NCBI GenBank assembly: GCA_902779075.1
Contig: CACZAK010000008.1
Span: 1-64,000, forward strand
DNA length: 64,000 nt
Direction: 5' to 3'
Origin: an uncultured bacterium
GTDB taxonomy: Bacteria > Verrucomicrobiota > Kiritimatiellia > RFP12 > UBA1067
The notes under the pieces are model-generated. The model was not told the origin of the DNA. It did no database searches and saw only the letters and a program-made list of their open reading frames with translations. The position numbers and the translations under genes are program-made. Positions 20,395-61,800 of the stretch are shown one piece after another. Positions within the stretch are counted from its first letter, which is position 1. Every line of letters starts with the position of its first letter.

Positions 20395-20422
20395 AGTATA
20401 TCAAAAATCAATCCGTCGGGAA
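20395..20422 (-). promoter_or_regulatory. probable lpxA promoter
   Basis: Minus strand TTCCCG (20422-20417), 16-nt spacer, TATACT (20400-20395), 29 nt upstream of the lpxA start codon. The match is moderate. Confidence 0.45.
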
Positions 20423-20494
20423 TGCCCTTTTGGAAAAACTTGGGTTATAAAAAATCCTCCTCGCGGCGCGCTCGGTGATCGCGCCCTACCGGAT

Positions 20495-23005: not shown

Positions 23006-25729
<2,724 letters not shown>

Positions 25730-29258: not shown

Positions 29259-30851
29259 TCATTTGGCGTACTCCACGCACCGAAGCTCCCGGATGACCGT
29301 CACGCGAATGAGTCCGGGGAACTTCACCTGAGAAGATATGTCACGGCATATCTCCCCGGCGAGAATCGGCACGTCCGTATCCGGGATGGCGTCTGGATCC
29401 ACCAGCACGCGCAGGTCGCGCCCCGCCTGCACGGCATAGACGTTCATGACTCCCTTGCGCGCGCGCGCCAACTTCTCTATCGTCTCGAGTCGCTGCACGT
29501 AGTCGCCGAGGCTCTCCTGACGCGCGCCGGGCCGGGCGGACGAAATCGCGTCCGCCGCCGAGCAGAGTACTCCGTACACTCCTCCGTCAGTGCCTGGATC
29601 GGCGTGATGGGCAGCAACAGCCGCGCACACCGCCTCGACCTCGCCGTGGTTTTTCAGGAACTCCGCGCCCAGTGCGGCATGAGCGCCCTTTTTCTCGGCT
29701 GTGATCGCCTTGCCGATGTCATGGAGGAAACCAACGCGACGGGCGCGCGCTGCGTCAAGGCCCATCTCCGCCGCCATGGTGCCCATGAGGAGCGCCACCT
29801 CCACGGAATGCCGCAGGACGTTCTGCGTGAAGGACGTGCGGAATGAAAGCGCGCCCATGAGCTGCAGTATGTCTGCCGGAAGTCCAGGCACGCCCGCCTC
29901 GGCGGCGGCGGCCGTCCCGGCCTCCTCGTTCGCGGTTGCCACCTGCGCGCGCGAATCGGCAACCGCACTCTCGATCGATGCTGGATGTATGCGGCCGTCG
30001 GCAATAAGCGCCGTCAGCGCGCGGCGGGCGATCTCGCGGCGCATCGGATCGAACGCAGAAAGCACTACGGTGTCCGGCGCGTCATCCAGCAACAGCGTCA
30101 CGCCCGTTGCGGCTTCGAACGCGCGCACGTTGCGTCCGTCGCGTCCTACGATACGGCCCTTCATCTCCTGGTTCGGCAGCGGCACCGTAGTCGTCGCAAG
30201 CTCGCTAAGGTGCGTCACGGCGCACCGCTGGATTGCATCCGCCACGAGGCGGCGGGCGACGGTATCGCCCTGTTCGCGCGCGGCTTCCTGTATGCGGCGC
30301 GAGAGAATCGCCGCGTCGGCACGGAGTTCCGCGTTCGCATGCGTGAGGATTTCGCGACGCGCCTCCTCGTGCGTCATCTTCGCGAGGTCGCGCAGACGCT
30401 TGTCGGCGGCGGCGAGATCGGACGCGGCCTTCTTCTCGGCGGCGGAAACGGCGGACTGCTTCGCCTCCACTGCGGCGAACTTTGCGTCCAGCTGGTCCGC
30501 GCGCCTGTCGAGGGCGTTCTCGCGTTGCGCGAGACGGTCCTCTATCGCCTGAAGTTCGGCGCGGCGCTTCTTAGCAGACGCCTCGAACTCCTCCTTAGCC
30601 TTCACGACTGCGGCGCGAGCCGCGATGTCCGCCTCCTTCAGCTTCGCCTTGATCTCGCTTTCGCTCTCCTCCTCGCGAAGGCGCATCTGCTTCTCAATGG
30701 TCTCCGCGCGCCAGCGCCCGACGAGCCCGCGCAGCGCGTAGCCGAGCAGGACACCGAGCAGCAGCAGCACCGCGATGATGATGATCGCGACGCCGTCCGA
30801 AAGGAGACTCCACGTGCTGCTCCAGGAATCGCTGGCGAGGGCTGCAAACAT
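29259..30851 (-). CDS. rny: ribonuclease Y
   Basis: The 530-residue endoribonuclease starts with a membrane anchor (about residues 20-42, VAIIIIAVLLLLGVLLGYAL). A long Ala/Glu/Lys/Arg coiled coil follows to about 185. A KH domain holds MKGRIVGRDGRNVRAFE. The HD domain has RHSVEVALLMG, FLHDIGKA with the metal-binding His-Asp, and AAHHADP. RNase Y starts decay of many mRNAs at the membrane. It lies 4 nt downstream of the GHKL ATPase gene. Confidence 0.94.
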   Translation of the reverse strand: MFAALASDSWSSTWSLLSDGVAIIIIAVLLLLGVLLGYALRGLVGRWRAETIEKQMRLREEESESEIKAKLKEADIAARAAVVKAKEEFEASAKKRRAELQAIEDRLAQRENALDRRADQLDAKFAAVEAKQSAVSAAEKKAASDLAAADKRLRDLAKMTHEEARREILTHANAELRADAAILSRRIQEAAREQGDTVARRLVADAIQRCAVTHLSELATTTVPLPNQEMKGRIVGRDGRNVRAFEAATGVTLLLDDAPDTVVLSAFDPMRREIARRALTALIADGRIHPASIESAVADSRAQVATANEEAGTAAAAEAGVPGLPADILQLMGALSFRTSFTQNVLRHSVEVALLMGTMAAEMGLDAARARRVGFLHDIGKAITAEKKGAHAALGAEFLKNHGEVEAVCAAVAAHHADPGTDGGVYGVLCSAADAISSARPGARQESLGDYVQRLETIEKLARARKGVMNVYAVQAGRDLRVLVDPDAIPDTDVPILAGEICRDISSQVKFPGLIRVTVIRELRCVEYAK

Positions 30852-30855
30852 GGCG

Positions 30856-31992
30856 TCAGCACACCGCCTTCTTCAAGAGGTTGAAAAGATAGCCGCGCTC
30901 TGCTACCGGCATGGAATCGAAGCCGTCGATCTGCGCGCGCATCTCGGCCACGCCCGCGTCAAACGCTGCGCGCTCCTCGCTCGCGTCATCCGGCGCGAAC
31001 GGGTATATCTTCTCGTCGATCCAACGGCGGAGGCGTTCCTGCACGGCCTCTTCCGTCCGCCGGTGGAAATGCTCCTTCAGAATCGCGCGCGTCGCATCCA
31101 GCCACGCTCGCACCTCGGGATGGAGCTCGTCCATCACGAGCGCGTTCTCCGCCGCGAGCTCGCTAAAGCGCGCACCCACGAGATAGGCAGTGTAGCTGAA
31201 CGGCTGGCCCGACCGCACGCCGGATGGACGTTCGTAGAGCGTGAAGCCGTCGCGTCCGCAGAACACGATGCGCCCCTTGCCCGCGAACTTCTTGCGCCAC
31301 TCGATCACCTCGAGCCTCGCCTCCATTCCCGAGTCGAGGCTGATCCTGTAGTCAGTCTCGCCCTTCTGCACGATGATCGGCGAAACGGGCAGACCGCAGA
31401 AATACACCGACACGCCCGGATACGCCTTGAGGTAGAGGGCAAACTTCACCGCAAGCGTCTGCACCACCAGCTCGGGTCGCGCAAGCGACTCCACCGTTGC
31501 GCGTACGCCCGTCACGTACACCTCGGTGCCCGTTGCCGGACCCGGTGTGGCCGCCTGCGCGAGATGGAAAACGCCCGGGTCGTTCGCGTCGCCAGCGAGA
31601 GTATAGGAGAGCAGCGCGTCTCCGGCCTTCATCGTGGTGCGCCACTCGACGTGCGTACCAAGCGCGAAAGCCTTGAAGCGTCCGCGCCCGTGCCGACCGT
31701 GGAGACGACGCTGGTAGGGCGGGCGCCCCGCGCCCGCCGCCTGCAATTTCCAGCTACCGCCGAGGGAGCCGAACGTCTCCTCGCTGCGGAGGATGTCGAT
31801 GCCCGTGCCGTCATCCGACACGCGCACCGCGTCTATGCCGCCCAGCGCGTTCTGCACAAGGTCCACCCGCACCTCGCGCGCGTCCGCGTCGAGTGCGTTC
31901 CACACGAGTTCCTCGACCGCTGAGAGCGGTGTCGCTCGCGCGAGCGAGGCTATGTGATCGGCCTTGGCCTGTACGTAGATGTCTCTCGTCAT
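30856..31992 (-). CDS. GHKL-type ATP-binding protein (HSP90/MutL-like ATPase fold)
   Basis: The 378-residue protein shows the Bergerat fold: the N-box AVEELVWNALDADA near residue 26, DDGTGI (about 71-76), GSLGGSWK, and GRHGRGRFKAFALG as the ATP lid. The rest has no recognised domain. Such stand-alone GHKL ATPases occur in restriction, defence and DNA-repair settings, but the function here is open. ATG 31992 overlaps the xseB stop (ATGA), so translation is coupled. A ten-residue insert, AAGAGRPPYQ, between the last two motifs is encoded by a palindromic repeat. Confidence 0.8.
   Translation of the reverse strand: MTRDIYVQAKADHIASLARATPLSAVEELVWNALDADAREVRVDLVQNALGGIDAVRVSDDGTGIDILRSEETFGSLGGSWKLQAAGAGRPPYQRRLHGRHGRGRFKAFALGTHVEWRTTMKAGDALLSYTLAGDANDPGVFHLAQAATPGPATGTEVYVTGVRATVESLARPELVVQTLAVKFALYLKAYPGVSVYFCGLPVSPIIVQKGETDYRISLDSGMEARLEVIEWRKKFAGKGRIVFCGRDGFTLYERPSGVRSGQPFSYTAYLVGARFSELAAENALVMDELHPEVRAWLDATRAILKEHFHRRTEEAVQERLRRWIDEKIYPFAPDDASEERAAFDAGVAEMRAQIDGFDSMPVAERGYLFNLLKKAVC
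31718..31738. repeat. GGTAGG-type palindrome inside the GHKL ATPase gene
   Basis: GGCGGGCGC-CCC-GCGCCCGCC is a perfect 9-bp stem with a CCC loop, preceded by GGTAG. The hairpin at 39882-39902 has the same layout and loop with G-C pairs swapped for C-G. It encodes an in-frame insert between conserved GHKL motifs. Confidence 0.75.
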
Positions 31993-32262: not shown

Positions 32263-35200
32263 TCATCCTTGGGAAACTGCAAAGTTATAAGCGTTACGGA
32301 ACATGCGCATCCAGGGACCGGCCTCACTGGTGAACACGCCCGGATTGTAGCTGAGCTGCGCGGCGCGGAAGCCGCGCTCCGGGTGCGGCATCATGATCGT
32401 CGCACGGCCGTCGCGCGTCGTGAACGACGTGAGACCGCCCGCCGAGCCATTCGGGTTCCAGGGGTAGCGCTCGGTCGGGTTGCCGCGACCGTCGACGTAG
32501 CGAAGCGCTGCCTTCGCCTTCGCGGTATCGACGCCCGCAGGGAACACCACGCGGCCTTCACCGTGCGCAACGGCGATCGGGATGCGGCTGCCTGCCATGC
32601 CCTTGAAGAAGATCGACGGCGAGTCGAGCACCTCGAGCGTGCAGTAGCGCGCCTCGAACTGCTCGGAGATGTTGCGCTTGAACTCCGGCCACGCTTCCGC
32701 GCCGGGAATGATGTCCTTGAGCTGCGAAAGCATCTGGCAACCGTTACACACGCCGAGCGAGAAGGTATCCTTCCGGTGGAAGAACTTCTTGAACATCGCC
32801 TTGAGCTTCCGGTTGAAGAGGATCGACCGCGCCCAGCCGCTGCCCGCGCCCAGCACGTCGCCGTAGCTGAAGCCGCCGCACGCGACGAGGCCCTGGAAAT
32901 CGGCGAGGTCCACGCGGCCGGCAAGAAGATCGGTCATGTGCACGTCCACGCTCTCGAAGCCCGCAAGCGCAAACGCCGCCGCCATCTCGATGTGGCCGTT
33001 CACGCCCTGCTCGCGCAGGATGGCCATGCGGGGCTTTCCGGACTTTCCGGATTTTCCGGATTTTCCGGATACTCCGGCATCCGGCTCGTAAGTGAGCTTG
33101 AAGGTGAGCCCGGGATCGGCCTCGTCGAGGCCGTTGTCGTATTCCTCCTTCGCCGAGGCGGGATTGTCGCGGAGCGCCTGCATGCGGTAGGTCGTCTCGC
33201 TCCACGCGCGACGGATGGAGGTGATATCCGTCGCGAGAACGCGACGGCACCCGACGTGGATCGTGAAAGCGCGATCGCCCGTAGGCGCACCGATCACATG
33301 CACGCAGTCGCCAAGGCGCGCGCGGCGGAAGATGGCCAGCACTTCATTGAGCTTTTCATCAGCTACCTGCAGCACCACACCCGGTTCCTCGGAGAAGAGA
33401 ACAGCCAGCGGATCGAGCGGATTTTCGGCGGCATCCGCATCAGGAAGCGTCACGTCGATGCCATGGCCGCCGGTGATCGCCATCTCGGCGAGCGTCACGG
33501 CGAGGCCGCCGTCCGAGCGGTCGTGGTAGGCGAGCGCAAGACCGCCCTTCACGATCTTCTGCATCGCGTTGAAGAAGGCTTTTAAAGGCTTAGCATCGGC
33601 ATCCGCGTTTTCGTCGCCAAGCTGGTTGTACACCTGCGCAAGGCAGCTGCCGCCAAGGCGGTACTTCGCCTGACCTAGATCGATGTAAATGAGCTGCGAT
33701 GCACCCTTCTTCAGATCGGGCGTCAAGGTGCGCTGCACGTTCTCGACGGGCGAGAAGCTGGAGACGACGAGCGAGAGCGGCGCTACCTGCTTGTGCGCGA
33801 GGCCCTTCGAGTCGGTCCACGTGGTGTGCATGGAGCAGCTGTCCTTGCCCACGGGAATCGAGATGCCGAGCGTAGGACAGAACTCCATGCCCACGGCCTT
33901 CACCGTGTCGAAGAGATTGGCATCCTCGCCCGGTTCGCCGCACGGGGCCATCCAGTTCGCGGAAAGGCGCACGTTGTGGATGTCGCCGCAGTCCGCCGCC
34001 GCGAGGTTCGTGAGCGCCTCGGCGATTGCAAGGCGGCCCGAAGCCGGCGCGTCGATGAGCGCCACGGGCGAGCGCTCGCCCGTCGCCATGGCCTGACCGT
34101 GGAGCGTCTTGTAGCCCATCGACGTCACCGCGCAGTCCGCGGCAGGCAGCTGGTAGGGGCCCACCATCTGGTCGCGCGCCACGAGACCCGTCACGGATCG
34201 GTCGGTGATCGTGACGAGGAACGTCTTGTCGGCAATCGTGGGCAGGTGCAAGAGACGGAAGAACGCATCCTGCGGCTGCACGCCGGCGAGCTTCAACGGC
34301 TCGTGCGCACGCGCGACGTGCGTGACGTCGCGCACCATGCGCGGCGGCTTGCCGAGCAGGACCTTGATGTCCATGTCGATCGGACGGTCGTGGAAGTATT
34401 CATCCTCAAGGATGAGGCGTCCGTCGCCCGTCGCCTCGCCGATGAACGCCACGGGACAGCGCTCGCGGGCGCACAGTTCCTCGAACCACGCGCGCGCCTC
34501 GCGCTTCAGCGCAAGCACGTAGCGCTCCTGGGCCTCACAGCACCAGATCTCCATCGGATTCATGGAGGGCTCTTCGTTGTGGACCGTGCGGAGCGAAAAC
34601 TTTCCGCCCGTCGCCTCCACGAGTTCGGGACAGCCGTTCGAAAGACCGCCCGCGCCGATGTCGTGGATGGAGAGGACGGGGTTCTTCCGCCCCATCGACG
34701 CACAGGCGTTGATCACGCCCTGACAACGACGCTGCATTTCCGCGTTGCCGCGCTGGACGCTGTTGAAGTCGAGCGCCTCGTCGTTCGTGCCGGTCATCAT
34801 CGAGCTCGCCGCACCGCCGCCGAGGCCGATGCGCATGGCAGGGCCACCGATCTGCACGATGTACGCGCCGGTCCTGACCGGCTTCTTCTCCACCTGGTCG
34901 CGGATGATCACGCCGTGTCCGCCCGCGAGCATGATGGGCTTGTGGTAGCCGCGATACAACCCGGCGGCCACGCCCTCGTACGTGCGGAAGAAACCCGTGA
35001 GCTGCGGACGCCCGAACTCGTTGCCGAACGCCGCGCCGCCGATCGGCCCCTCGGTCATGATCGCGAGCGGCGTGGCGAGACGCTTCGGGAACTCCGCGTA
35101 CTCGCGCTCCCACGGCTGCGGATAGCCGGGGATGTGCAGGTCGCTCACCATGAAGCCGCAGATGCCCGCGTTCGAGCGCGAGCCGCTGCCCGTCGCCGCC

Positions 35201-36276
35201 TCATCACGGATTTCGCCGCCCACGCCCGTGGCCGCGCCCGGGTAGGGCGAAATCGCCGTCGGGTGGTTGTGAGTTTCGACCTTCATCAGCTGGTCGAGCT
35301 GGAGCTTGCGGAAGCGGTAGGTATGGTCGCTAGAGGATCTAGCGGGGCTAGAAGTTCTAGAGGATCTAGAAATTCTAGAATCGCTAGAAGTAGCACCCAC
35401 CGGACCAAAGACCTCCGTCTCAAAGCCTTCCACCACGGATGAGTTATCCTTGTAGGCGACGAGCGTGCCCTTGCCGTTCTTCTTGTGGGTGTTCTTGATC
35501 ATCCCGAAGAGGGAGTCTTTCTGCTTCTTCCCGTCGATGATGAACTGGGCGCCGAAGATCTTGTGGCGGCAGTGTTCGGAGTTCACCTGACCGAACATCA
35601 CGAGTTCCGTGTCCGTGGGGTTGCGCCCCGCGGCCTTGAAGGAATCGGCGAGGTACTGCATCTCGGGCTCGCTGATCGCGAGACCGAGCGAAACATTCGC
35701 CTCGCGGATCGCCTCCACGCCGCGTCCGAGCACGTCGAACGTGACGCCGGGCTTCGGTGGCGGACAGTCAAAGAGGTCGTCGAGGTCCGTGTACACGCCC
35801 TCGGTCATGCGGTCGTAAAGTGCTGCAATCGCCTTGTTGTTCTGAAGCGGCGAGAGCGCCGCTTCCCCGAGGGGCTGCTGATTCGGGGAAGCGGCACTCT
35901 TGCCGCTTCCGTCAGAGGTAATACAATAACGGATGCCACGTTCAACGCGCGCTATGCCCTTCAAGCCGCAGTTGCGGAAGATATCGGTGGCCTTCGACGA
36001 CCACGGCGAAATCGTACCCTTGCGCGGCGTGACGTAGAACGACCCCCGTTCCCCATTCCCCGTTCCCCATTCCCCGCTCTCGGCATTCAGGAGCAGGGCC
36101 GCGCGGTCGAGCGTCTCGGCATCGGGGCCTTCGCCCTCCGGTTCGATCGCGTACACCCAGCGTGCGTCAATCGAAACATTCGCGAGCGCCGGGTCGGCGG
36201 CGGCGAGGGCGGCGCGCAGGGCGTCGAGGCGGAACGGCGAATACGCCGCGGATCCCATCATCAAAATTGGTTTCAT
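32263..36276 (-). CDS. purL: phosphoribosylformylglycinamidine synthase, single-chain
   Basis: The 1337-residue enzyme is the large single-chain type, joining an N-terminal domain, the FGAM synthase core and a C-terminal glutaminase. It converts FGAR to FGAM in purine synthesis. Visible are [67 protein letters not shown], and in the glutaminase LGVCNGCQM (nucleophilic Cys) and [11 protein letters not shown] 36276 has AAAGGAAAG upstream. Four separate low-complexity inserts, near residues 68-76, 123-145, 296-316 and 1065-1080, correspond to four different repeat families in the DNA. All fall in linkers relative to conserved motifs. Confidence 0.96.
33034..33083. repeat. TCCGGA array inside purL
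   Basis: Four TCCGGA hexamers at 9-bp period, then degenerate TCCGGC and TCCGG. On the minus strand it reads [11 protein letters not shown], between the synthase and glutaminase domains. This is a different reading phase from the valS arrays, which give Asn-Pro-Asp/Glu. Confidence 0.85.
35329..35391. repeat. TCTAGA array inside purL
   Basis: Seven units of exactly 9 bp: hexamers GCTAGA or TCTAGA (one TCTAGC) with spacers gga, ggg, agt, gga, aat, atc, agt. It encodes the Ser/Arg stretch [16 protein letters not shown] just before the conserved LMKVETHNH segment. Confidence 0.88.
35844..35909. repeat. paired GAAGCGGC palindromes inside purL
   Basis: GAAGCGGCG-AGAG-CGCCGCTTC (35844-35865) and GAAGCGGCA-CTCT-TGCCGCTTC (35888-35909) are two perfect 9-bp stems. 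Between them TTCCCCGA and TCGGGGAA also pair. The two stems differ by a compensated pair (G-C versus A-T). They encode [19 protein letters not shown] in frame. A third relative is at 20495-20513. Confidence 0.85.
36048..36075. repeat. heptad array RTTCCCC inside purL
   Basis: Four tandem heptads alternating GTTCCCC and ATTCCCC. It encodes [11 protein letters not shown] in frame, immediately before the conserved [11 protein letters not shown]. Confidence 0.8.
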
Positions 36277-36326: not shown

Positions 36327-39194
36327 TCACAGGAATCGACCCGTAATCGAGGCCGAATTGGCGCGGATTTCCTCGGGCGTGCCTTCCGCCACGAGCGTGC
36401 CGCCCGCGTCGCCGCCGCCGGGACCGAGGTCGATGATCCAGTCCGCACAGCGCATCACGTCCACGTTGTGCTCGATTACGACCACGGTGTTGCCGCTTTC
36501 GCGCAGTTTGAGCAGAAGCGCCATCAGTTTTGCTACGTCATCAAAGTGGAGACCGGTCGTCGGTTCGTCGAGGAGGTAGAGCGTGCGGCCCGTCGAGCGG
36601 CGCGAAAGCTCCGTCGCGAGCTTGATGCGCTGCGCCTCGCCGCCGGAGAGCGTAGTGGCGGGCTGCCCGAGGCCGATATAGCCAAGACCCACGTCAACAA
36701 GGGTTTTTAGTTTCGCCGCGAGACGCGGCACCTTCGCGAAGAATTCATACGCTTCCGCCACCGTCATGTCGAGGACGTCGGAGATCGTCTTGCCGCCGTA
36801 CTTCACTTCAAGCGTCTCCTTATTGAAGCGGCGCCCGTTGCACTGCTCGCACGTGACGTACACATCGGGCAGGAAGCTCATCTCGAGCTTCCGCACACCG
36901 TCGCCGCCACACGTCTCGCAGCGTCCGCCCTTCACGTTGAAGCTGAAGCGACCGGCCGTGTAGCCGCGCGCCTTCGCGCCCTCGGTCTTCGCGAACAGCT
37001 CGCGGATGTCGCTGAAGAAACCCACGTATGTCGCCGGGTTCGAGCGCGGGGTGCGTCCTATCGGCGACTGGTCGATTTCGATCACCTTGTCGATGTGCTC
37101 CACGCCGGTGAGCTTGCGGAACTTGCCCGGCACGGCCTTCGCGTGGTAGAAACGGCGCATCAGCTCGCGCTTCAAGGTTTCGTCGATGAGCGAGGACTTT
37201 CCGCTCCCCGAGACGCCGGTCACCACGGTAAACGTGCCGAGCGGAATCTTCGCCGTGATGTTTTTGAGATTATGGTGCGTGCAACCGGAGATGGTGAGGT
37301 AGTGGCCGAACGCAGTTCGGCCATCAAATCTCGCGGAGCAACGGGAGGGCCGCGCTCCGTCGCGGCCGGATTCGATCCGCCGCTTCCCCGTGAGATAGTC
37401 GGCGGTCAAAGTGCCGGCCTTCAGCAATCCCTTGAAATCGCCCTGGTACATCACGCGGCCGCCTTCGCGGCCTGCACCGGGGCCAAGATCCACGATATAA
37501 TCGGCCGTGCGCATCATCTCCGCGTCATGCTCCACCACCACCACGGTGTTGCCACGGTCGCGAAGCTCCTTAAGAGTGGCGATCAGGCGAGTGTTGTCGC
37601 GGGGATGAAGGCCGATGGTCGGTTCGTCGAGCACGTACAAGACGCCAGTGAGTCCGCTCCCGATCTGCGAGGCGAGGCGGATGCGCTGCATTTCGCCGCC
37701 GGATAGCGAGCCGCTTGAACGGTCGAGTGTAAGGTAGTCGAGGCCAACGTCGTTGAGGAAGCCAAGGCGTTTAACGATTTCCTTAAGTACGTCCTTCACA
37801 GTTGAAAAGTTTTCCCTAGATTCGCCAGAACCGCTAGATTTCTCTAGTAGCCCCTGGAAGAAGCCAAGGGCCTCTTTCACGGGAAGTGCCATCACATCCA
37901 CGATACTCTTGCCCGCCACGGTGACAGCGCGCGACTCGGGTTTGAGGCGCGAGCCGTGGCAGGAGGGACAGGGGCGGTCGCTCTGGTACGACTCGAACTT
38001 CTCGCGCCGCTCGTCGCTTTCCGCCTGCTCCATCATGCGCTGGAGCGTGGCCATCACGCCCTCGAAGGGTTTGTCGTTCGAGCGCCAGGGAAGGATGAGA
38101 TCGTCGTCGAAACCGTGCAACAGCTTGTGCCGGAAATCGGCGGGCAGATCCTCCCACGGCGTTTCCAACTTTACCTTATACTGCTTCGCAATCCGCGATA
38201 GGATTTCGTTGTAGTACATTATCGCCATGTGGCCGGCCCGACGCCACGGATGGATGCACTCGCGGAGGGGGAGTGTCTTGTCGGGGATCACGAGGTCTTC
38301 GTCGAAGTAGAAGATAGAGCCGAGGCCACCACACGTGGGGCACGCCCCAAACGGCGAGTTGAAGGAGAAGTTGCGCGGCTTAAGCTCGTCGAAGGAGATG
38401 CCGCAGTCGGGACAGGCGTTCTTCTCGGAGAACACAAATGCGGGAGGGTCGCGCTTGTCGCGACCTTCGTCAACGCGCTCCACCACGATGATGCCATTGC
38501 CTGTCTTGAGACCGAGCTCCACTGAGTCGGTGAGGCGCGTAGTGAATGCCGGATCGGCGGAGAAGGGGATCACGAGCCGGTCCACCACCACGTCGATGGA
38601 GTGGTTCTTCTTCTTGTCGAGGGAAGGCACTTCCTCAAGGGCGTACGTCGTGCCGTCCACGCGCACGCGGGCGAAGCCCGCGCGCTTGATCTCGGCGAGG
38701 GTTTCTTCGTGGCGGCCCTTGCGTCCCTTAACTGCCGGAGCGTAAATGATCAGCTTCGCGCCGGCCGGATACTTGAGGATGGTCTCCACTATCTCTTCCG
38801 CGCTCTGACGACGCACCGGTTTTCCGCATTTCGGACAATGCGCCACGCCCACATTGCCGTAGAGTAGGCGAAGGTAGTCGTGAATCTCCGTGACAGTGGC
38901 CACAATCGAGCGCGGGTTGCCGCCGGAGGTTCTCTGCTCGATGGCAATGGCGGGCGAAAGCCCCTCGATGCGCTCCACGTCCGGCTTCTGCATCTGGTCA
39001 AGAAACTGACGCGCGTAGGCGCTCAGCGATTCCACGTAGCGGCGCTGTCCCTCGGCGTAGAGCGTGTCGAACGCGAGCGACGACTTCCCGCTTCCGGAAA
39101 GCCCGGTCACTACGGTAAGGGAGTTGCGCGGGATGCGCACGTCAACGTCACGCAGGTTATGGACCTTCGCCCCTTCAATGATGATATCGGCCAT
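36327..39194 (-). CDS. uvrA: excinuclease ABC subunit A
   Basis: The 955-residue DNA damage sensor of nucleotide excision repair has two ABC ATPase modules. Walker A motifs are GLSGSGKSS (about 31-39) and GVSGSGKSS (about 660); signature motifs are [13 protein letters not shown] and [13 protein letters not shown]. Zinc-binding pairs include [30 protein letters not shown] and CETCGG...CEQC. TAGGAGATTGAA ahead of the ATG supports the start and overlaps the upstream gene's end by design of a 9-nt gap. Three hairpin elements and one TCTAGA-like array are embedded in frame, at spots where UvrA proteins have variable linkers. Confidence 0.96.
37303..37323. repeat. GGCCGAAC palindrome inside uvrA
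   Basis: TGGCCGAAC-GCA-GTTCGGCCA, a perfect 9-bp stem with a 3-nt loop, followed by TC. The kdsD copy at 52565-52583 has the same loop and a compensated pair change. Encodes DGRTAFGHY in frame. Confidence 0.85.
37348..37367. repeat. GGYCGCG palindrome inside uvrA (copy 1)
   Basis: GGCCGCG-CTCCGT-CGCGGCC, 7-bp perfect stem, preceded by CGGGAG. It lies 25 bp from the GGCCGAAC hairpin; together they make the insert [20 protein letters not shown] before the second ATPase half. Confidence 0.85.
37815..37847. repeat. degenerate TCTAGA array inside uvrA
   Basis: CCTAGA, GCCAGA, GCTAGA and a shifted CTCTAG at about 9-bp period. Encodes [12 protein letters not shown] in frame in the linker before the first signature motif. 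Confidence 0.65.
38447..38465. repeat. GGYCGCG palindrome inside uvrA (copy 2)
   Basis: GGTCGCG-CTTGT-CGCGACC, perfect 7-bp stem preceded by CGGGAG. Differs from copy 1 by a paired T-A for C-G change. Encodes [10 protein letters not shown] in frame ahead of a zinc-binding cysteine pair. Confidence 0.85.
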
Positions 39195-39203
39195 TTCAAT
39201 CTC

Positions 39204-41111: not shown

Positions 41112-41157
41112 TGTTCACAATTGCCATCAATGGGACATTTGCAAAATATCTTTTTGA

Positions 41158-41231
41158 TTGTCCATGTAGAACATGCAGAACATATAAATCATCTGTATGT
41201 TTTGCATGTTCTACCTGTTCTACATGGACAA
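41158..41231. repeat. 74-bp imperfect inverted repeat with 9-bp period
   Basis: TTGTCCATGTAGAACA on the left pairs with the complement on the right (ending at 41231). Inside, the arms read as 9-bp units: CATGTAGAA, CATGCAGAA, CATATAAAT on one side and GTTTTGCAT, GTTCTACCT, GTTCTACAT on the other. It lies in the 221-bp gap between rho and the TMTC-like gene, which holds no gene I can support. Confidence 0.75.
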
Positions 41232-41283
41232 ACCCCTCCTCAGACACGATCTTGCAATGCAAACTAGCATCTCGCAAAGTGAC

Positions 41284-41332: not shown

Positions 41333-43303
41333 TTAGTAGAGGTTCTTCGCGTCGATCGACAAAAGGAACTCTGGGTTCGACCTGTACTTCTTCATCCCGG
41401 CGAGCACTGCCTGCATGGCGCGCTCGGGGCCGGCGTCGGACAGCGCGCGGCGAAGCGCCCAGGTCTTCTCCAGCTCCAGCGGCGCGAGCAGGAGGTCTTC
41501 CTTTCGCGTGCCGGACTTGTCGATGTCGATGGCAGGGAAGATGCGCTTGTCGGCAAGGCCGCGGTCGAGGCACAGCTCCATGTTGCCCGTGCCCTTGAAT
41601 TCCTCGAAGATCACCTCGTCCATGCGGGAGCCGGTATCGACAAGGCCCGTGGCGATGATCGTGAGCGAACCGCCGCCCTCGATGTTGCGGGCCGCGCCGA
41701 AGAAGCGCTTCGGACGGTGCAGCGCGAGCGCATCCACGCCGCCCGTGAGGATCTTGCCCGAGTGCGGCTGCACCGTGTTGTAGGCCCGGGCGAGACGCGT
41801 GATCGAGTCGAGCAGGATCACCACGTCCTTGCCGTTCTCCACCTGGCGGCGCGACATCTCGATCACCATCTCCGCCACGTTCACGTGGTGCTGCGGCTCC
41901 TCGTCGAACGTGGAGGAAAGCACCATCGCCTTCGTGTTGCGCTGCATGTCCGTCACTTCCTCGGGGCGCTCGTCAATGAGCAGCACGATGAGGACTGCAT
42001 CCGGGTGGTTCTTAGTGATGGCGTTCGCCATCTTCTGGAGAAGGACCGTCTTGCCGACGCGCGGAGGCGCAACGATCAGCCCGCGCTGCCCGAAGCCAAT
42101 CGGCGTGAAAAGGTCGACCACGCGCATCGACGTCTCGCCCGGCGTCGTCTCAAGAATGATGCGGCGCGTGGGGAAGGTGGGAGTGAGGTTCTCGAAGTGG
42201 ACTATACGCGCGGCCTCGCTGGGCGTCTTGCCGTTCACCGACACCACGCTGCCGAGCGCAAAGAAGCGATCCTTGTCGCGAGGGTCGCGGATCGGGCCCA
42301 CGACGGTATCGCCCGTGCGGAGCGCGTGGCGGCGGATCTGCTGCTGGGGGATGAACACGTCTTCGGGGCAGGCCAGGAAGTTAGTCTTCGCGCTGCGGAG
42401 GAAGCCGTAGCCCTCCTTCACCACTTCCAGGCAGCCCGTGGTCATCACGGCACCGCCGCGGTTCAAGTAGGTGCGGATCGCGCCGAAGATGATCTCGTGG
42501 CGCTTCATCGCGCCGAGGTCCTCTGGGTTTGCGTCCGGCCACATCTTCGCCACGATGTCGGCGTTGTCCCAGGTATGGATGTCCTGAAGGTTGTACTCGG
42601 GCAGGTCGGGGTTGCGCGGCACGGCGGGGACTGGCGGCGGAAGGTTCTGCGGCACCTCGTATGCCGGACGCCGGTTCCCCTGCGGCGGCGGAGAGAACTT
42701 GCCGCCGCCCTTGAAGTTCGGACGGTTCCCGTTGCGCTGAGCGGCGCGCGCTAGCCATTCCATGCGACGGCGCTGGCGATTGCTCATCGGCTGCTCGCCG
42801 GGCTGCGGCGCCGCAGGCTGCGCAGAGGCAGGCTTCTTCTCTGCTTCCGCCGGTTTCGACGTGGCATCTTGCGCCGGTTTCGGTGCCGCATCTTGCGCTT
42901 GTTTCGGTGCGGTATCTTGCTGTTGTACGCTTGCTGTTTCCTGGGCAGGCTTCGGCTCGACCGCAGGCTTCGGCTCGGCCGCAGGCTTCGGCTCGGCCGC
43001 AGGCTTCGGCTCGGCCGCGGGCTTCGGCTCGGCCGCAGGCTTCGGCTCGACCGCAGGCTTCGGCGTTATATCTTGCTGTTGTACGCTTGCTGTCTCATTA
43101 TCGGCTTTCTTCGCAGGCGCATCAACCGCCGCCGCTGCTGCCGCCGCCGCACGTGCCGCCAACTCGGCCTTCGACGGACGTCCGCGCTTCTTCTTGGGAG
43201 CAGGGGCGGGCGTGGCAGACGTGGAGGCATCGCCACTTGGAGAGGTCTCTTTCGCTTCGGCGGAAGCCGCAGCCGTGGATTTCTTAACTTCTTCAGCACT
43301 CAT
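41333..43303 (-). CDS. rho: transcription termination factor Rho with long N-terminal extension
   Basis: The 656-residue protein has a conserved C-terminal 420 residues: the RNA-binding cold-shock-like domain (GYGFLRS, CPEDVFIPQQQIRR, GDTVVGPIR), GFGQRGLIVAPPRVGKT (P-loop), LLIDERPEEVTDM, SSTFDEEP, DSITRLARAYN and the R-loop/C-terminal region. It is an RNA-dependent hexameric ATPase that ends transcription. The P-loop reads PPRVGKT instead of the usual PPKAGKT. The first 220 residues are disordered, with an AT-hook-like KKKRGRPSK, an alanine run and seven PKPAAE-type repeats. The start overlaps the end of coaE by 11 bp. Confidence 0.95.
   Translation of the reverse strand: MSAEEVKKSTAAASAEAKETSPSGDASTSATPAPAPKKKRGRPSKAELAARAAAAAAAAVDAPAKKADNETASVQQQDITPKPAVEPKPAAEPKPAAEPKPAAEPKPAAEPKPAVEPKPAQETASVQQQDTAPKQAQDAAPKPAQDATSKPAEAEKKPASAQPAAPQPGEQPMSNRQRRRMEWLARAAQRNGNRPNFKGGGKFSPPPQGNRRPAYEVPQNLPPPVPAVPRNPDLPEYNLQDIHTWDNADIVAKMWPDANPEDLGAMKRHEIIFGAIRTYLNRGGAVMTTGCLEVVKEGYGFLRSAKTNFLACPEDVFIPQQQIRRHALRTGDTVVGPIRDPRDKDRFFALGSVVSVNGKTPSEAARIVHFENLTPTFPTRRIILETTPGETSMRVVDLFTPIGFGQRGLIVAPPRVGKTVLLQKMANAITKNHPDAVLIVLLIDERPEEVTDMQRNTKAMVLSSTFDEEPQHHVNVAEMVIEMSRRQVENGKDVVILLDSITRLARAYNTVQPHSGKILTGGVDALALHRPKRFFGAARNIEGGGSLTIIATGLVDTGSRMDEVIFEEFKGTGNMELCLDRGLADKRIFPAIDIDKSGTRKEDLLLAPLELEKTWALRRALSDAGPERAMQAVLAGMKKYRSNPEFLLSIDAKNLY
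42913..43093. repeat. 18-bp tandem repeats framed by a 25-bp direct repeat, in rho
   Basis: About seven 18-bp units (GGCTTCGGCTCGGCCGCA and close variants, 42946-43065) encode (K-P-A-A-E-P)n. The flanks 42913-42937 and 43069-43093 are an exact 25-bp direct repeat encoding ETASVQQQD, 156 bp apart. Length should vary by slippage in steps of 6 residues. Confidence 0.85.
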
Positions 43304-53393: not shown

Positions 53394-53401
53394 GGCAGTT
53401 T

Positions 53402-53473
53402 CCCGGATTTTCCGGATTCTCCGGATTTTCCGGATTCTCCGGAATTTCCGGATATTCCGGATTTTCCGGGCTA
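53402..53473. repeat. TCCGGA array filling the pta-kdsD gap
   Basis: Eight units of exactly 9 bp (CCCGGA, six TCCGGA, TCCGGG) with spacers ttt, ttc, ttt, ttc, att, tat, ttt, cta. The last unit includes the pta stop codon, and the first lies 8 bp from the kdsD start codon. Confidence 0.9.
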
Positions 53474-54520: not shown

Positions 54521-54544
54521 TTTGCTTTTGCTTTTCGCTTTTCT

Positions 54545-54616
54545 TCTAGATGTTCTAGTTGTGCTAGATGTGCTAGATTTTCTAGAAGACCTAGAATCGC
54601 TAGACCTTCTAGATTA
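54545..54616. repeat. TCTAGA array in the ackA-pta gap
   Basis: Eight 9-bp units: TCTAGA, TCTAGT, GCTAGA, GCTAGA, TCTAGA, CCTAGA, GCTAGA, TCTAGA, each followed by a 3-nt spacer (tgt, tgt, tgt, ttt, aga, atc, cct, tta). It fills most of the 105-bp gap. Confidence 0.9.
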
Positions 54617-55892: not shown

Positions 55893-58800
55893 TCACTTCG
55901 TGAGGATTGCCTTGAAGAAGCGGGCCTCTGGTGCCTTGGCGCGCGCATTGGCGAGCTCCTCGGCCGTGACGGCGACGCCATCGCCATCGGTCGTCTTGTT
56001 CGCGTAGATCGTGATCGACTTGATCGGCACCTCCACCGCGTCGGCGAAGTCGGGCGTCGTGGAGCACGCGAGCGACAACTGGACCGTCGCCTGCTTGGAG
56101 AACACGATCATGCTTGAGGGATCGCCGCCGGACGTGGTGTTCACGACCTCCAGCTCAAGGCCGTCTTCAAGCGAGAACGCCTTGATCTGCACCGCAGTGG
56201 ACTCGGCCGCGTCGGCAAGCATCTGCGCACTTGCGCTGATTGAAGCCTGCAGCCTGTTGTTCCGCATGTTGCCCGTCGCGGCCGTGGCCCCCTCAATACC
56301 GCCCGCGATCAGCGAGTAGGCGTTTAACGTGGAGTCCAACGTCGGGTTGACCGTCGCGAAGAACGTATTGCCGCTAATCGGGCCCTGGCTGGAAAGGTTT
56401 CCTTTCTCGTTCCACTCCCAAGCATCCGGGAATCCGTCGTTATCAGTATCCGCATCTTCAATGAACACTGTGGCATCGGGCATCATGTCCTGATAGGACA
56501 CTGTAACCGGCTTCGGCCTCCAGACGGACGTGACCGCTGGATCAAGCACGAAGCAGTTGTAGCCCCACGACTCCCAATCGGACTTCACGCCATCGGCGTC
56601 GGTGTCGATGTAGGCGCGCACATAGTAGGTGCCGTTGACCGCCACGCCGCGAATGACAGCGTTAGTGACGATAACGGATGTATATGCAACCTTCGAAACA
56701 TCGCTGACGTACGTCTCAGCCACGGGCAAGCCGGAGAAGTCCGGCGACGTGAACGCCTGGACGCGCACGAGGTTCTTCCTGGTCGTCGGAACCGCAGAAA
56801 GCCTAACGAGCGGGCCGAAGTACTTCACGCGCACGGCAATGGAGCCGTATTCCTTGCCGTCAAGCAGGTTGCCACTCGTACCGAGACGGAACGGCGTGAC
56901 CTTTTCATCGTTGTTGAAGTTCGTGAACTTCGCGTCAAGCATCGAAACCGCCCAGTAGTAGTTGTTTGTAGTGGTGAGCACCATTCCTGCAGGCGTGACC
57001 ATGCCCGCGTAAACAGGCGCAGTCCACTCGTACATTCCGTTCGAATCGCGAGCAGGAGCGCGCTGCGAACCGGAATCGTAAACAATCGTGTTTTTGTCCT
57101 TATCCGCATAAATGCGGAGACGGAACGCAGGATACGCCTTGTCGATCGAGTTCGTATGCGACCAACGGAACCTCGGCCGGCTCGGATAAACGATCTGCTC
57201 AAGTTTCGGATCCGGGACTGTGAGTGTCTGAGAGGTGCGCGCTTCAAAGCGGTTGGAGAAGAGGACGGGCAGGTTGTTGCCAAAGTTCTCATATTCACCT
57301 ACATCCACGTACCCGCCATCGTTGTCTTCGCCAATCACAACGCGGTAAGTGGCGCTTTCCAGCGAAGCTGAGGCTGTGGCGCTGCCATTAAAGGCCCTGT
57401 TGAGCGTACCCCAGTCCAGATCCAGCTTGCCGTCGGCGAGCAAATCGGCCTCGGTCAGCGCCGGATGAACGGACAGGTCAAATCTCTTGTCAAACAACAC
57501 GTCGTTTCTGGCACGGTCGCCATTGATCCAGTTGCGGACAACGCGAACACGCGTAAGCGAAAGCTTGGTCGGCATGTTCGTTCCAGGATAAAGCGATTCC
57601 CTGTTTCGGTAATACCCGGTTAGCGCGTTGACCTCGTCACGATCGGTGCCGCCGACACGGAATGCATCCGGGAAGTTGAAGCGGGCCATGATCGGCGTCG
57701 TGCGCGTCAGCTCTACCGTGAATTCCGCTTCCGACCAGCCAACGTCAACGTCTTGCACAACGCCGTATGCATTACCAGGCACCCACTTGCCGGCTGCGTC
57801 CGCAACGAACACCACGAACGTGTTCTTGCCTTCGCGCACGTGGCCGTAGGTAGCCTGATCGGAGGTTGTGTCATCACTATCCGTAAGGTGCAGCGTCATC
57901 CACGGATTACCGCCTGCAACCTCCGCTTCCCAGGAAACCCTCACATGGCTGTTGGCGAGATGCAGTAGGACGGAATTCGTCGCATCATTGCCTTCGCCAA
58001 CAACAGGCAACGATGTCGGCAACTTCGTGTAGTCAACCGTCACCAGACCCGTGTGGTAGTCAACTGTGCCGATCTCCAGTGAATTCGTCGGCGTGCTGAC
58101 CAGAATCTTGCCACTAGACGTACCTGTAACTTGACGATCCTCGGCAAGTGCCTGCCATTCGGCGGTGTTGATGTCGCCAAGCGCCGTAACGACGCCGTTG
58201 GTGTCGATGACCTCAAAGTCCGGATCAAGGAACGACATCGAGATGCTTCCGGGCTTGACGAATCCGGGAGACAGGGTGAAGGAAACCTCGCCGTTCGGGT
58301 TTGCGCCAAGGTATTTGGTCTTCGCCGAATTCTCGCTGGAATCGGATGAGGACGAACCAGTTGTGGAATCGTCGGACGACGTTCCCACAGGAACCGTCCA
58401 TGTCGCGTCGGGCAGACCGGTCAGCTTGCTCGTGTCAGAGAAAGCCTGCACCACTATCGTGCCGTTCAGCATGCCCTCGCCCGGGCCCATCACGACCTTG
58501 GCGTGGATTGTCGGTATAGGATAGTTCTTTACGACTATACCCTTTACGCCGTATGTATTGGCTTCGAACTCGGGATTGGTGCCAGCGCGGCACTCGGCGT
58601 AGTTGCTCCAGCCGTCGCTGTCCGAATCGCGCCACGGGTCGTAGAGTCCGCGCGTGACCTTCGTCACGTCGAACAGGTCTTCCCAGAGGTCTTCCATGAA
58701 GTCGTGGTCGGTGAACATTTCGCCGAGGTAGAGCTTGTTGTTTATACGGCGGAAATAGTCCGGTATGAGGTTCGTCAGCGAGTAGGTGTTCGTCGCGGAG

Positions 58801-61800
58801 ATGTCCGACACACCGGCGAATTCCGAGTACTGCGAGAAGCCGCTCGCGATCAGGAACTCCGTGAAGTTCGGCAGCTGGTCGTTGTCGGCGTCACCGTACG
58901 GTTCATCGAGAACGTACCTGATCTCATCGACATCGTCCACGCCGTTGTCGTTGGAATCCTTGACCCACGGGTCGTACGCAGGGGCGCCGCCGTTCCACTT
59001 CTCAAGCAGGGTGATGTCACCTGCCGGGGCGACCGCACGGGCGTCGGCGTAGTTGTACGGACTGATCTTGGCGGCGGCAAGCGTGGCCGTCACGCCCTCG
59101 GTTCCGAACATCGTGTACAGTTCCCAGCCGTCCGGTACGCCGTCGACGTCGCTGTCAGACGAGGACGGTGCAAGCGCAAGCGCCTTCCAGTCGGCCGCCG
59201 CGTTGGCAAGGCCGTATGCCTCGAGGTAGCGGACGACGAGGTACTTGTCCAGCACCGTGAACGGCTTGGTGTTCGCGCCATAGACATAGTTCGTGCCCTC
59301 CTTCGTGACCGCCGTCGGGTTCGCGGTGTCCTTGTTGAAGCCGAAGTAGTCGTACACCTGCGCGTGGACGAGCACCACGGGCTCGGTTGCCACTGCCACG
59401 ATGCGGTTGGCTGTTCCGGCAGCGGCCGTGAGCGTCACGTTCGTGCCCACGCCGCAGCGGTTCGTCACGGAGCCGTCGTTGGCGTCGGTCGACACGAGAT
59501 ATTCGTACGTCGCGCGCAGCGCAAGCGAATCAGCGTAGTCTCCGACCTTGGGCGCAACCACGGTTTTGCCTGCCATTTCCTCTGCGAGGAGGTACTTCAC
59601 CGGCAGGCTGCCTTCCGCGGTATTCTGCACTGTCACGACCGTAGCGTTTACGGTGGCAAACGCCATCACGTCGTTCTCAAGCGCAAGGTTGCCGTCTGGC
59701 ACCGTCGGATCGGTTACGCCGAAGAACTGCTCGACGTCGTCAGGGATTCCGTCGCCGTCCGTGTCGTCGGAGTTCGGGTCGCTGCCGTCGGTGAAGTCCT
59801 CCCTGTAATCGTCGTCCGGCTTGCTGGGATCGCTCGAGGCGGAGTACTTCACGTACAGCTCCCAGCCGTCCGGCATGTCGTTGCCGTTGGTGTCAGTCCA
59901 CCACGTAGAGGGATCGGCCGTCCACGATGTCGTGAGGAAGTAGTCGTCCTCCGCGCCCACCATCGGCAGGTACATCGTCTGCGTGATATACTTCAGCCTA
60001 CGCGTGAACGGAACGCTGTTCGCGCCGACGGTGTAGTTCGAGTTGGATTCCGCCAGGTAGGCAATGGACTCGGGCCACCAGTACGAAGGCTTGGCCGTCG
60101 TCGGGTCGAATCCGTACCAGTCGTAGACTGCGGAGTGGATGACCGTCGCGTTCGTGACCATCGTCATGAAGTCGCCGTTCTCCATCGCATTGTAGGCGTA
60201 TTCGTTCGTGCAGACCGCGCCCACGAAGAGCTCGTTGCCCACGTAGAACGTCTCGTAGAGCGTGTTCGTGCCCGGGTCGATCGCGTAGATCGAGGCCACG
60301 CCGCCGGCGTTCGTGACCACCGAAATCAGCACGTTGGTCTGGACGTATGCCATGTAGTCGTCCTCCGGCGCCCAGTCCCAGAACGCCTTCTGCGCTTCCA
60401 CCGTCGCGTTCGCGATGCCGTTCGTGATGGCGAACGTATTGTCGTAAGGAGGCAGCGAAGCCGCGAATTCCGGATCCTGCACCGCAAGGTTATTGTAGAA
60501 GTAGTAGTCGTCCTCCGGGTCGTAGCGGTACTGGTATGCATGCCTGTCACTGCCGCCGACGTACAGCTGCCAGCCGTCCGCGAGGCCGTCGCCAGTGCCG
60601 TCCTCGAAGTCGTACACGACCTCGACGGGATCCGCGTAGCCCACGATCTCCTTCGTGAAGTAGCGCCAAGCGTGCGTGAACGGAGCCGTGTGGCCCGTGC
60701 CCGCCGCAGTGGTTGCGGCCGCCGCAGCCGTCTCTTCGCCGCCCTCGCCGTCTGTTGCCGCCGCCGCCGGGGCCGCAGACGCCGCGCCGTCGTTGATGCA
60801 GCCGCGGGCCGTGTCCGCCTCGAAGCCGTAGAAGTGGTAGACCGCCCTGTGGACGAGCGTCACCGGCTCCTCGCCGATCGGCAGGCCCGCCACGTCGACA
60901 TCGGCCGTCTCGCCCCACGCGACCAGCTCGCCGTTCGGCAGCGTCACCGTCCTGAGAACCGTCTTCACCGCGCCCTCAGCGACGCCGTCGGGATCGTTCG
61001 CGCCCGCGATCACCACGACGAACTTGTCCGTGCCGTTAGTCGCCACGTGCGCCGTAGTCTGCGCGTAAGCCATCACGCCGTTCGCGTAGTTCCAGTCGTT
61101 CGTGTACACGTCGAGTGCCGCCACAAGCTCCGCGTTAGCGACTCCGGCAACGAAGTTGGTCGCCGTGCCGTTGATGGCACCGGCAGCCACCAGGCTGTTC
61201 CAGAAGCCGTATTCGTCATACGGGTCATACGGGACCTGAGCGAAGTTGTCGCCGTAGGAGGCGCGGGCGTCCGCGTCATCATACGTCAACGACGGATCGT
61301 GCCACACGGCGTAGCGGACATACAGCTCGTAGCCGTCGGGCAGGTAGTTCGCGTTGGAGTCGAGCTTTTCAACCGCGAGCGCAAAGTCGTTTGTCGCGTC
61401 GCCGAACTCCTTCAGGTAGAACTCCTGCGTAACGTACTTGAGGAACGCCGTGAACGGAACCGTGTTCGCGCCCTGGACGGACTGTTCGGTCTCGGCGCCG
61501 TCTTCGCCGGCGACCGTCTGGACAGTTCCCGGCCTCGCCGTCGTCGGGTCGTAGCCGTAGAAGTCATAGACGGCGGAGTGCATCACAACCACGTTGGTCA
61601 CATAACCGTAAGCGTAAGTGTTCATCACGTCCTGACGGTTCGTCGGTGCGCCCACGTAGAGCTGGTCGTTCACCTCGAACACGGTGTACACGGTGTTGCT
61701 CTGCTGCGTGTAACCCTCCTCGAAGCGGGAGTTCACCACGAACCTGTTGGTCACGGTACCCTCGGTATTCGTGGCGACCATGATGGTCACGGTATCGACC

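Follow-up and report, generated by a model that had tools for sequence, protein, structure and literature searches.

Different repeat families occupy the same linkers of purL in related Kiritimatiellae genomes

An essential enzyme gene that carries several repeat tracts within its reading frame raises the question of whether these are old features of the protein or recent arrivals in places where additional residues are tolerated. We address this question for purL in a 64,000-nt stretch of DNA (contig CACZAK010000008.1 of assembly GCA_902779075.1; hereafter the window), the host of which is a gut or rumen bacterium of the Kiritimatiellae. The gene occupies positions 32263..36276 of the minus strand (ATG at 36276, stop at 32263) and encodes a full-length phosphoribosylformylglycinamidine (FGAM) synthetase of 1337 residues, matching model NF003672 at 1804 bits against a cutoff of 783, and also TIGR01735. 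Its product can be aligned over most of its length with solved PurL chains, such as 1t3t, and PurQ-type models start to match it at residue 1083. The informative fact about this gene is the reuse of one linker by different repeat families, rather than the number of families it holds, and we consider it probable that the length-tolerant linkers of PurL are reusable landing sites for several kinds of short, non-coding repeats distributed genome-wide.

Repeat inserts in PurL linkers

Four inserts, which an initial annotation had described as unrelated repeat families lying in frame in one gene, were confirmed inside the purL reading frame, all on the minus strand. Linkers of PurL are designated S1-S6 (with U- and V-numbers for sites in uvrA and valS, respectively). 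S1 (36043..36076, residues 66-77) is an array of GGGGAAY heptads (RTTCCCC on the plus strand) encoding an 11-residue peptide; its sequence, GGGGAATGGGGAACGGGGAATGGGGAACGGGGG, contains five runs of at least four G and has the four or more G-tracts in 7-nt units that characterize G-quadruplex heptad repeats. S2 (35844-35865 and 35888-35909, residues 122-146) is an inverted pair of GAAGCGGC palindromes, which resemble repetitive extragenic palindromes (REPs). S3 (35326..35391, residues 290-317) is a CTAG (TCTAGA) array with seven cores, one every 9 nt, encoding a Ser/Arg-rich peptide, and S6 (33035..33078, residues ~1069-1081) is a TCCGGA array with five CCGG cores every 9 nt, encoding 12 residues immediately preceding the glutaminase part of PurL, at a gap position in the alignment to 6jt8. 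All four features are real; the term "unrelated" does not extend to the TCCGGA and CTAG arrays, which share a single architecture of one palindromic core per 9 nt. Predicted single-strand folding yields z scores of -7.3 for the S2 pair, which folds as one long hairpin, -6.4 for the CTAG array and -4.25 for the TCCGGA array; the S1 heptads (z -2.5) do not form a hairpin. In the nearest compared relative (G001) S1 is longer by exactly 21 nt, or three heptads, and in another (G012) S3 is cleanly longer by exactly 27 nt. Simple arithmetic makes both types of array easy for a gene to accommodate: heptads specify one and the same 7-residue repeat in whichever of the three frames of a strand they are translated, and any number of 9-nt units leaves the frame intact. 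The further proposal of the annotation, that the inserts reside in loops, is supported by alignments to solved PurL chains and by variability in length among relatives, from which the insert-bearing sites appear to be length-tolerant linkers.

Related genomes are given G-numbers (W being the genome of the window), PurL homologs P-numbers and individual loci L-numbers. The PurL of G001 is 97% identical to that of W, and its purL contig is collinear with the window from 18.6 to 62.7 kb, with long blocks at 90-99% identity; the other named relatives are mostly metagenome-assembled genomes of gut Kiritimatiellae. Across these genomes a given linker holds quite different sequences. S3 is occupied by a CTAG array in W, G001 and G012, a TCCGGA array in G014 and G016, a short TCCGGA-like tract in G003 and a heptad hairpin in G005, and is empty in G008, G007, G002 and G009. 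S6 contains a TCCGGA array in W and G014, a CTAG array in G001 and G012, an 8-nt repeat in G006, the heptad hairpin in G005, another hairpin in G011, G013 and G016, and a GTAG palindrome in G007, G009 and G017, where GTAG precedes the palindrome as in REPs of that type (GGTAGGGCGCGCTCGCCGAGCGCGCC in G007 and G017, and a similar sequence in G009). S4, empty in W, is occupied in G005, G009, G011 and G013, and S5 holds GAAGCGGC copies, as a pair in direct orientation, only in G012 and G014 among the genomes read. W, G001, G012 and G014 have almost the same S2 pair, which is missing from G008, G007 and G003; it may have entered after the split from the latter three or been lost from them; a decayed REP-like stretch is present at S2 of G009, and REP-like peptides occur at S2 of P0019.

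This distribution bears directly on the first of several alternatives, that the tracts are old protein features of the phylum with a repetitive look. The lengths of S1, S2 and S6 do vary across relatives, often in the absence of repeats, as might be expected of such features. Against this, an alignment of PurL from 64 relatives and W revealed no identical inserts shared phylum-wide: S3 comprises 9-11 residues in 59 of the 65 rows, W being one of the six that are longer, and the inserts match species-specific, genome-wide repeats for which controls are near zero. The lineage specificity anticipated in the annotation is thereby borne out, while antiquity is contradicted by the PurL alignments and is hardly credible.

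The scale of turnover was estimated with family labels, which are peptide patterns written by the analyst, on PurL homologs taken from the best 120 of 7998: 112 plus W (113 rows) for labelling and 80 plus W (81 rows) for a tree. Labelled inserts were present in 26 rows at S1, 15 at S2, 26 at S3, 15 at S4, nine at S5 and 41 at S6; five or more named families were represented at each of S1, S3 and S6, as against three at S4. The tree, a quick build from which site columns were excluded and in which 26 of 78 inner forks remain open, requires a minimum of 16, 6, 16, 13, 4 and 20 changes of state at S1 to S6, or at least 75 over the 81 PurLs; restricting the count to occupied rows leaves minima of seven at S1, one at S2, nine at S3, six at S4 and 15 at S6. 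Particular sister pairs illustrate the same point. P0041, with inserts as in G005, differs in state from its sister P0029 at S1, S2, S3, S4 and S6, and P0021 carries a single heptad family at S1, S3, S4 and S6, with none in its sisters P0016 and P0017. Frequent turnover, in keeping with the frequent insertion surmised in the annotation, is supported. Pairs of linkers within one protein have a family in common in 35 of 89 cases, against 6.8 expected, and in 12 of 26 against 2.9 among 66 representatives (none of 2000 shuffles as high in either test); these shuffles ignore the tree, so that relatedness may inflate the figures, two S1 CCGG9 labels in this count are doubtful, and the tree labelling used wider windows and slightly wider patterns. 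Such sharing above shuffled levels suggests that the genome, rather than the linker, is the driver.

A special load of repeats in purL, as was originally suggested, is not sustained, since other genes in the window are also hosts. The valS gene (23006..25729, minus strand; NF004349, 1158 bits) contains two TCCGGA arrays on that strand, at 23855..23895 (peptide PENPDNPEN), where G001 and G008 have other palindromes, and at 24347..24385, where both have a TGGTCAAACNCAGTTTGACCA palindrome. The third host gene, uvrA (36327..39194, minus strand; NF001503, 1369 bits), includes site U3 (37299..37395, minus strand; folding z -3.3), which is filled by palindromes in W and G008 and by GTGGTTC heptads in G001. 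W, G012 and G014 share a GTAG-type palindrome at 31711..31739, within a MutL-like ATPase gene (30856-31992), that G001 and G008 lack. Two arrays of 9-nt period are intergenic, a TCCGGA array at 53399..53472 (folding z -7.7), where G001 has a CTAG array instead, and a CTAG array at 54544..54613. Differences of family at the same site recur at two sites in valS, three in uvrA and one, at 53.4 kb, between genes, and a similar variety is seen at the insert sites in the best 65 UvrA and the best 59 ValS homologs of 120 listed for each.

Other features of the window were noted in passing. No Rfam family was detected in it at the gathering threshold. Repeats of the ATGTAGAACATG type are found in lineage-specific intergenic inserts, some 120-200 nt long, which lie at different places in W (41128-41279) and in G001 (opposite 39195-39200). 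An 18-nt tandem array at 42945-43064 is longer in W than in G001 by 90 nt (five units), and 63 in-frame nt of an RNase Y gene (30530-30592) are found in W, G012, G014 and G008, and not in G001. A very long open reading frame of 2562 residues (55893-63581) has many stretches that diverge strongly between W and G001, and opposite 20399-20455 G001 has approximately 1.3 kb more intergenic DNA than W and G012.

Exchange, selection and assembly as alternatives

A possible, though less probable, alternative to new insertion is homologous recombination between co-living species, whereby conserved purL flanks would carry linker cassettes from one genome to another as exchanged alleles. In keeping with this, the S3 TCCGGA insert travels with the neighboring residues GGAPYSF in G014, G016, G003 and several database PurLs of distant relatives, the CTAG and empty alleles having H-x-Y-x-F, and AGTGCC heptads occupy S1, S3, S4 and S6 in P0041 as well as in P0055, although the tree does not place the two as sisters. 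A comparison of 300-nt flanks among W, G001, G012 and G014 gave a divided answer: the pair with the most similar flanks has a common family at S6, U2, V1 and V2, whereas it differs in family at S1, S3, U3 and the 53-kb site. At S3, for example, the flanks of W and G014 are 97.1% identical and their families differ, while those of W and G001 are 93.5% identical and the family is common. With four variable sites each way, exchange of 300-nt haplotypes was rejected as the sole cause; this split nonetheless led us to give recombination added weight, and short-tract exchange of cassettes beside fresh insertion is a serious possibility.

Selection might also maintain the inserts, if linker peptides or RNA or DNA hairpins were to tune PurL folding, expression or mRNA stability. 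The hairpins are strong, the inserts in the purL copies examined are in frame except in two broken genes, and the heptad hairpin of G005 retains a recognizable peptide in its nine gene copies. On the other hand, sequence, length and family vary freely among close relatives, any one site is without a labelled insert in most relatives (72 of 113 rows at S6, and 87 of 113 at S1 and at S3), and the same families also occur in intergenic DNA. Selection of this kind appears improbable, and the inserts, with the peptides presumably translated, would be neutral or selfish.

The two broken frames could also be taken as signs of faulty metagenome assembly. One is a frameshifting loss of 74 nt at S6 in G008 (L032) and the other a 7-nt loss in G012 (L031); the latter sits in a conserved stretch outside the array, and an array-driven frameshift of the G012 gene was rejected. 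Assembly errors are a very improbable source of the inserts themselves, as the S2 pair is nearly identical in the separate assemblies of W, G001, G012 and G014, and some of the insert-bearing PurLs stand for whole clusters of sequences (P0007, for instance, for eight).

Possible genomic sources of the inserts

Both types of 9-nt array recur across genomes beyond chance. Among 16 genomes of the genus scanned, the TCCGGANNNTCCGGA pattern gave 0-214 forward matches per genome and was present in 11 (214 in G014, 114 in G012 and 34 in G001), being absent from G002, G005, G006, G008 and G010; the reversed-pattern control gave 0-1. The pattern CTAG-N5-CTAG-N5-CTAG occurred 0-126 times, in eight of the 16 (126 in G002, 119 in G012, 85 in G001 and 58 in G014; control 0-5). 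Since several genomes of the genus lack them, arrays are abundant only in some species. Across the order, four-core CTAG arrays were found in 55 of the 161 genomes, representing 11 of 33 genera (0-120 matches; control 0-11). Exact 9-nt spacing of cores stands out in W and G001 and, because intergenic arrays have the same period, does not derive from selection on the reading frame. Twenty of 58 arrays sampled from W, G001, G012, G014 and G002 lie inside genes, 19 called by a codon score above 10 on both flanks and the G012 S3 array by homology. Samples of seven genomes contained no further palindromic core with a 9-nt period and at least three chains beyond CTAG and CCGG. A viral origin was discarded from pattern counts, the viral loci themselves not being read: all viral contigs together hold 65 TCCGGA stretches and at least 120 of CTAG, compared with 146 and 94 matches in single genomes.

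Spacers between the cores offer some indication of how arrays lengthen. Next-but-one spacers resemble each other more than random for CCGG arrays in G014 (0.82 versus 0.61) and for CTAG arrays in G012 (0.50 versus 0.36) and G001 (0.48 versus 0.35). Block copying of CTAG arrays between loci was rejected, words of three spacers being shared 0 times in G002, G012 and G001; two-spacer words were shared twice in G002 (versus 0.47; 33 of 500 shuffles), once in G012 (versus 0.40) and not at all in G001. On balance these spacer patterns, together with the additional 27 nt at S3 of G012, fit local growth of the 9-nt arrays by slippage, more clearly for CTAG.

The heptad hairpin of G005 includes a subtype found in genes. 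Its core, GCGCGNAAGCAACGCAC, initially appeared as a 15-mer exclusive to purL, which proved wrong; with one base freed there are 16 exact copies in the genome (one having T as the second base), four of them in purL, at S1, S3, S4 and S6; one purL element folds with z -6.8. All four purL copies share a C variant that is found in none of the 12 other exact copies and in three of 13 one-mismatch matches elsewhere, although not all such matches are true copies (L298 is not) and a reversed control gave 10 matches at up to two mismatches. Of 19 copies read, nine are in genes (four in purL, one in uvrA and four in other frames with coding signal, L286 being less certain as a gene), and a single frame is open through all nine, giving a similar peptide, such as SAELKHKDLRESNAPGTKHQAP in uvrA. 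Nine others were labelled intergenic because no open frame passes through them, so that their lack of frames is not independent evidence, and L279 was assigned to neither class. The inner segment of the hairpin differs between genic and other copies, with L282 looking intermediate. The concentration of four of the 16 copies in four linkers of one 4-kb gene, their common C variant and the genic subtype suggest, tentatively and with considerable doubt on our part, that an active hairpin family might quickly fill the tolerant linkers of the same gene and displace earlier occupants by local copying (template switching from linker to linker, or conversion of short tracts) and not by random insertion throughout the genome followed by filtering.

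The GAAGCGGC family has the short palindrome and many dispersed copies typical of REPs and bacterial interspersed mosaic elements (BIMEs), and the inverted pairing at S2 is a further trait of that class. Counted on both strands, GGGGAAGCGGCNCTCNYGCCGCTTC occurs 27 times in G001, 44 in G012, 59 in G014 and 59 in G008, in 13 of the 16 genus genomes overall (control 0), with no match in G002, G003 or G010. REP-associated tyrosine transposases (RAYTs) provide a candidate means of movement: in four relatives a RAYT gene is flanked by palindromes, with CTCGGGGAAGCGGCGCTCCCGCCGCTTC on both sides of HUH (RAYT-type) genes at L150 (G011), L151 (G016) and L152 (G013), and a GAAGCGGC variant with another loop at L154 (G006). 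A GTAG or CGTC end tag is not found consistently; ends are CCTCGGG and ATGAC at L150-L152, and CCTGGGG and various others at L154, and CGTC follows (plus strand) a single member of the S2 pair, but neither its partner nor the S5 copies. As a separate observation, places matching the Y1_Tnp model number several per genome in G012, G014, G005, G002 and G008 (L263, L264, L267-L269 and L271-L277), and many have their own repeated palindromic words nearby, e.g. GGGGACAGTCCCC, GGCGTCTCGCC and CGCCATCTTGGCG.

These features can be accommodated in a scheme in which new repeat copies would arise across the whole genome by means particular to each family. The GAAGCGGC and GTAG palindromes, being REP/BIME-like, may owe their movement to RAYT transposases, possibly acting in trans, including in the clade of W; the TCCGGA and CTAG arrays would probably grow locally in slippage steps of 9 or 18 nt; and heptad arrays would give rise to G-rich tracts or inverted hairpins, changing by frame-preserving steps. 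Copies falling in structured parts of an essential enzyme would be harmful and lost, the survivors being free of stops, in frame and in a linker. The families active at any time would differ from species to species, and turnover would outpace species divergence, from which it follows that sister species would show different families at the same linker through successive insertion and replacement.

Several points weigh against this reading of PurL linkers as landing sites for genome-wide repeats. No insertion event itself was caught in the compared genomes, which are draft metagenome assemblies, and the peptides or hairpins may have a function. The link of GAAGCGGC to RAYT genes was seen at four of 26 distinct places read, the other 22 lacking the palindrome, and Y1_Tnp matches are weak, at 39.6 bits or less. 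The GAAGCGGC palindrome was found at none of 11 Y1_Tnp places in G001, G012 and G014, the closest compared relatives of W, and at none of nine in G005, G002 and G008 (0 of 20 in total); its absence from RAYT genes in those closest relatives led us to lower the weight of this reading. Neither TCCGGA nor CTAG arrays occur at the RAYT loci read and no frame with a PNH-H motif was found in 39 array loci, which leaves both families without an identified enzyme. CTAG arrays are clearly genic in none of 16 cases in G002, as opposed to 20 of the 42 arrays sampled from the other four. Finally, next-but-one spacer similarity is slight for CTAG in G002 (0.47 versus 0.45) and absent for CCGG in G012 (0.65 versus 0.66, from only three arrays), and the CCGG arrays of G014 share five three-spacer words between loci against 0.97 expected (5 of 500 shuffles), an excess that favors copying between loci.

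Relation to known repeat systems

From the perspective of the host protein, these findings portray essential enzymes as long-term hosts of rapidly changing parasitic DNA, each linker serving as a record of the repeat families recently active in a lineage. This opens a direct test of how intragenic repeats enter, are replaced and supply new linker segments to proteins, and cautions that the length or sequence of a linker in such proteins is, by itself, no evidence of adaptation. It also adds two types of array, with CTAG or CCGG cores every 9 nt, for which no mobilizing enzyme was found at the loci read.

Several known systems invite comparison. PARCELs (palindromic repeat coding elements; PMC2996958) are likewise palindromic in DNA, translated and spreading; they differ in having a 25-residue amphipathic motif and in occurring in membrane proteins and open reading frames of unassigned function, not in enzyme linkers. 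G-quadruplex heptads are described in PMC4692102 as GGGGA(C/T)T in Nostoc and GGGAATC in Xanthomonas. The S1 GGGGAAY array matches these in unit length and layout of G-tracts, but has another consensus and amounts to just a few units, in an essential-gene linker; 68% of the Nostoc heptads are intergenic, which implies that up to about one-third may lie inside genes. A search of the open-licence literature (Kiritimatiellae or Kiritimatiellota repeats, TCTAGA arrays, same-position inserts and coding palindromes) found, among the papers listed, no account of linker turnover such as that described here.

Rickettsia palindromic elements, to which the initial annotation had likened the purL inserts, are in-frame palindromic insertions in unrelated genes, comprising several families with a conserved peptide (PMC10969869 and PMC3733652). 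The parallel drawn is one of layout; the host phylum is another, and the inserts of the window encode simple repeats. It does not hold for the TCCGGA inserts, which are read in two frames (SGK in purL, PEN in valS) rather than yielding a conserved peptide from a single frame, nor is it the best match for GAAGCGGC. The closer fit in layout lies outside the window, in the G005 heptad hairpin, whose in-frame gene copies have a conserved peptide. Overall, then, the interpretation offered in that annotation is partly supported.

For GAAGCGGC the closest known parallel is the REP/BIME class. REPs have already been reported inside genes, among them double insertions in each of the two uvrA genes of the verrucomicrobium O. 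terrae, and in a single instance, the recB gene of two Xanthomonas species, roughly the same position holds different REPs (PMC3733652). Intragenic GTAG/CGTC REPs and REPtrons are alike in placing short palindromes in housekeeping and repair genes and in having RAYT genes flanked by repeats. In contrast to these, numerous families, including several that are not REPs, here reuse the six linkers of one gene; reuse of the same site recurs in three genes; and GAAGCGGC has no consistent GTAG or CGTC tag. Hence what is known is the intragenic residence of REPs and of Rickettsia palindromic elements, and what is new is that many families reuse a single set of linkers and turn over fast.

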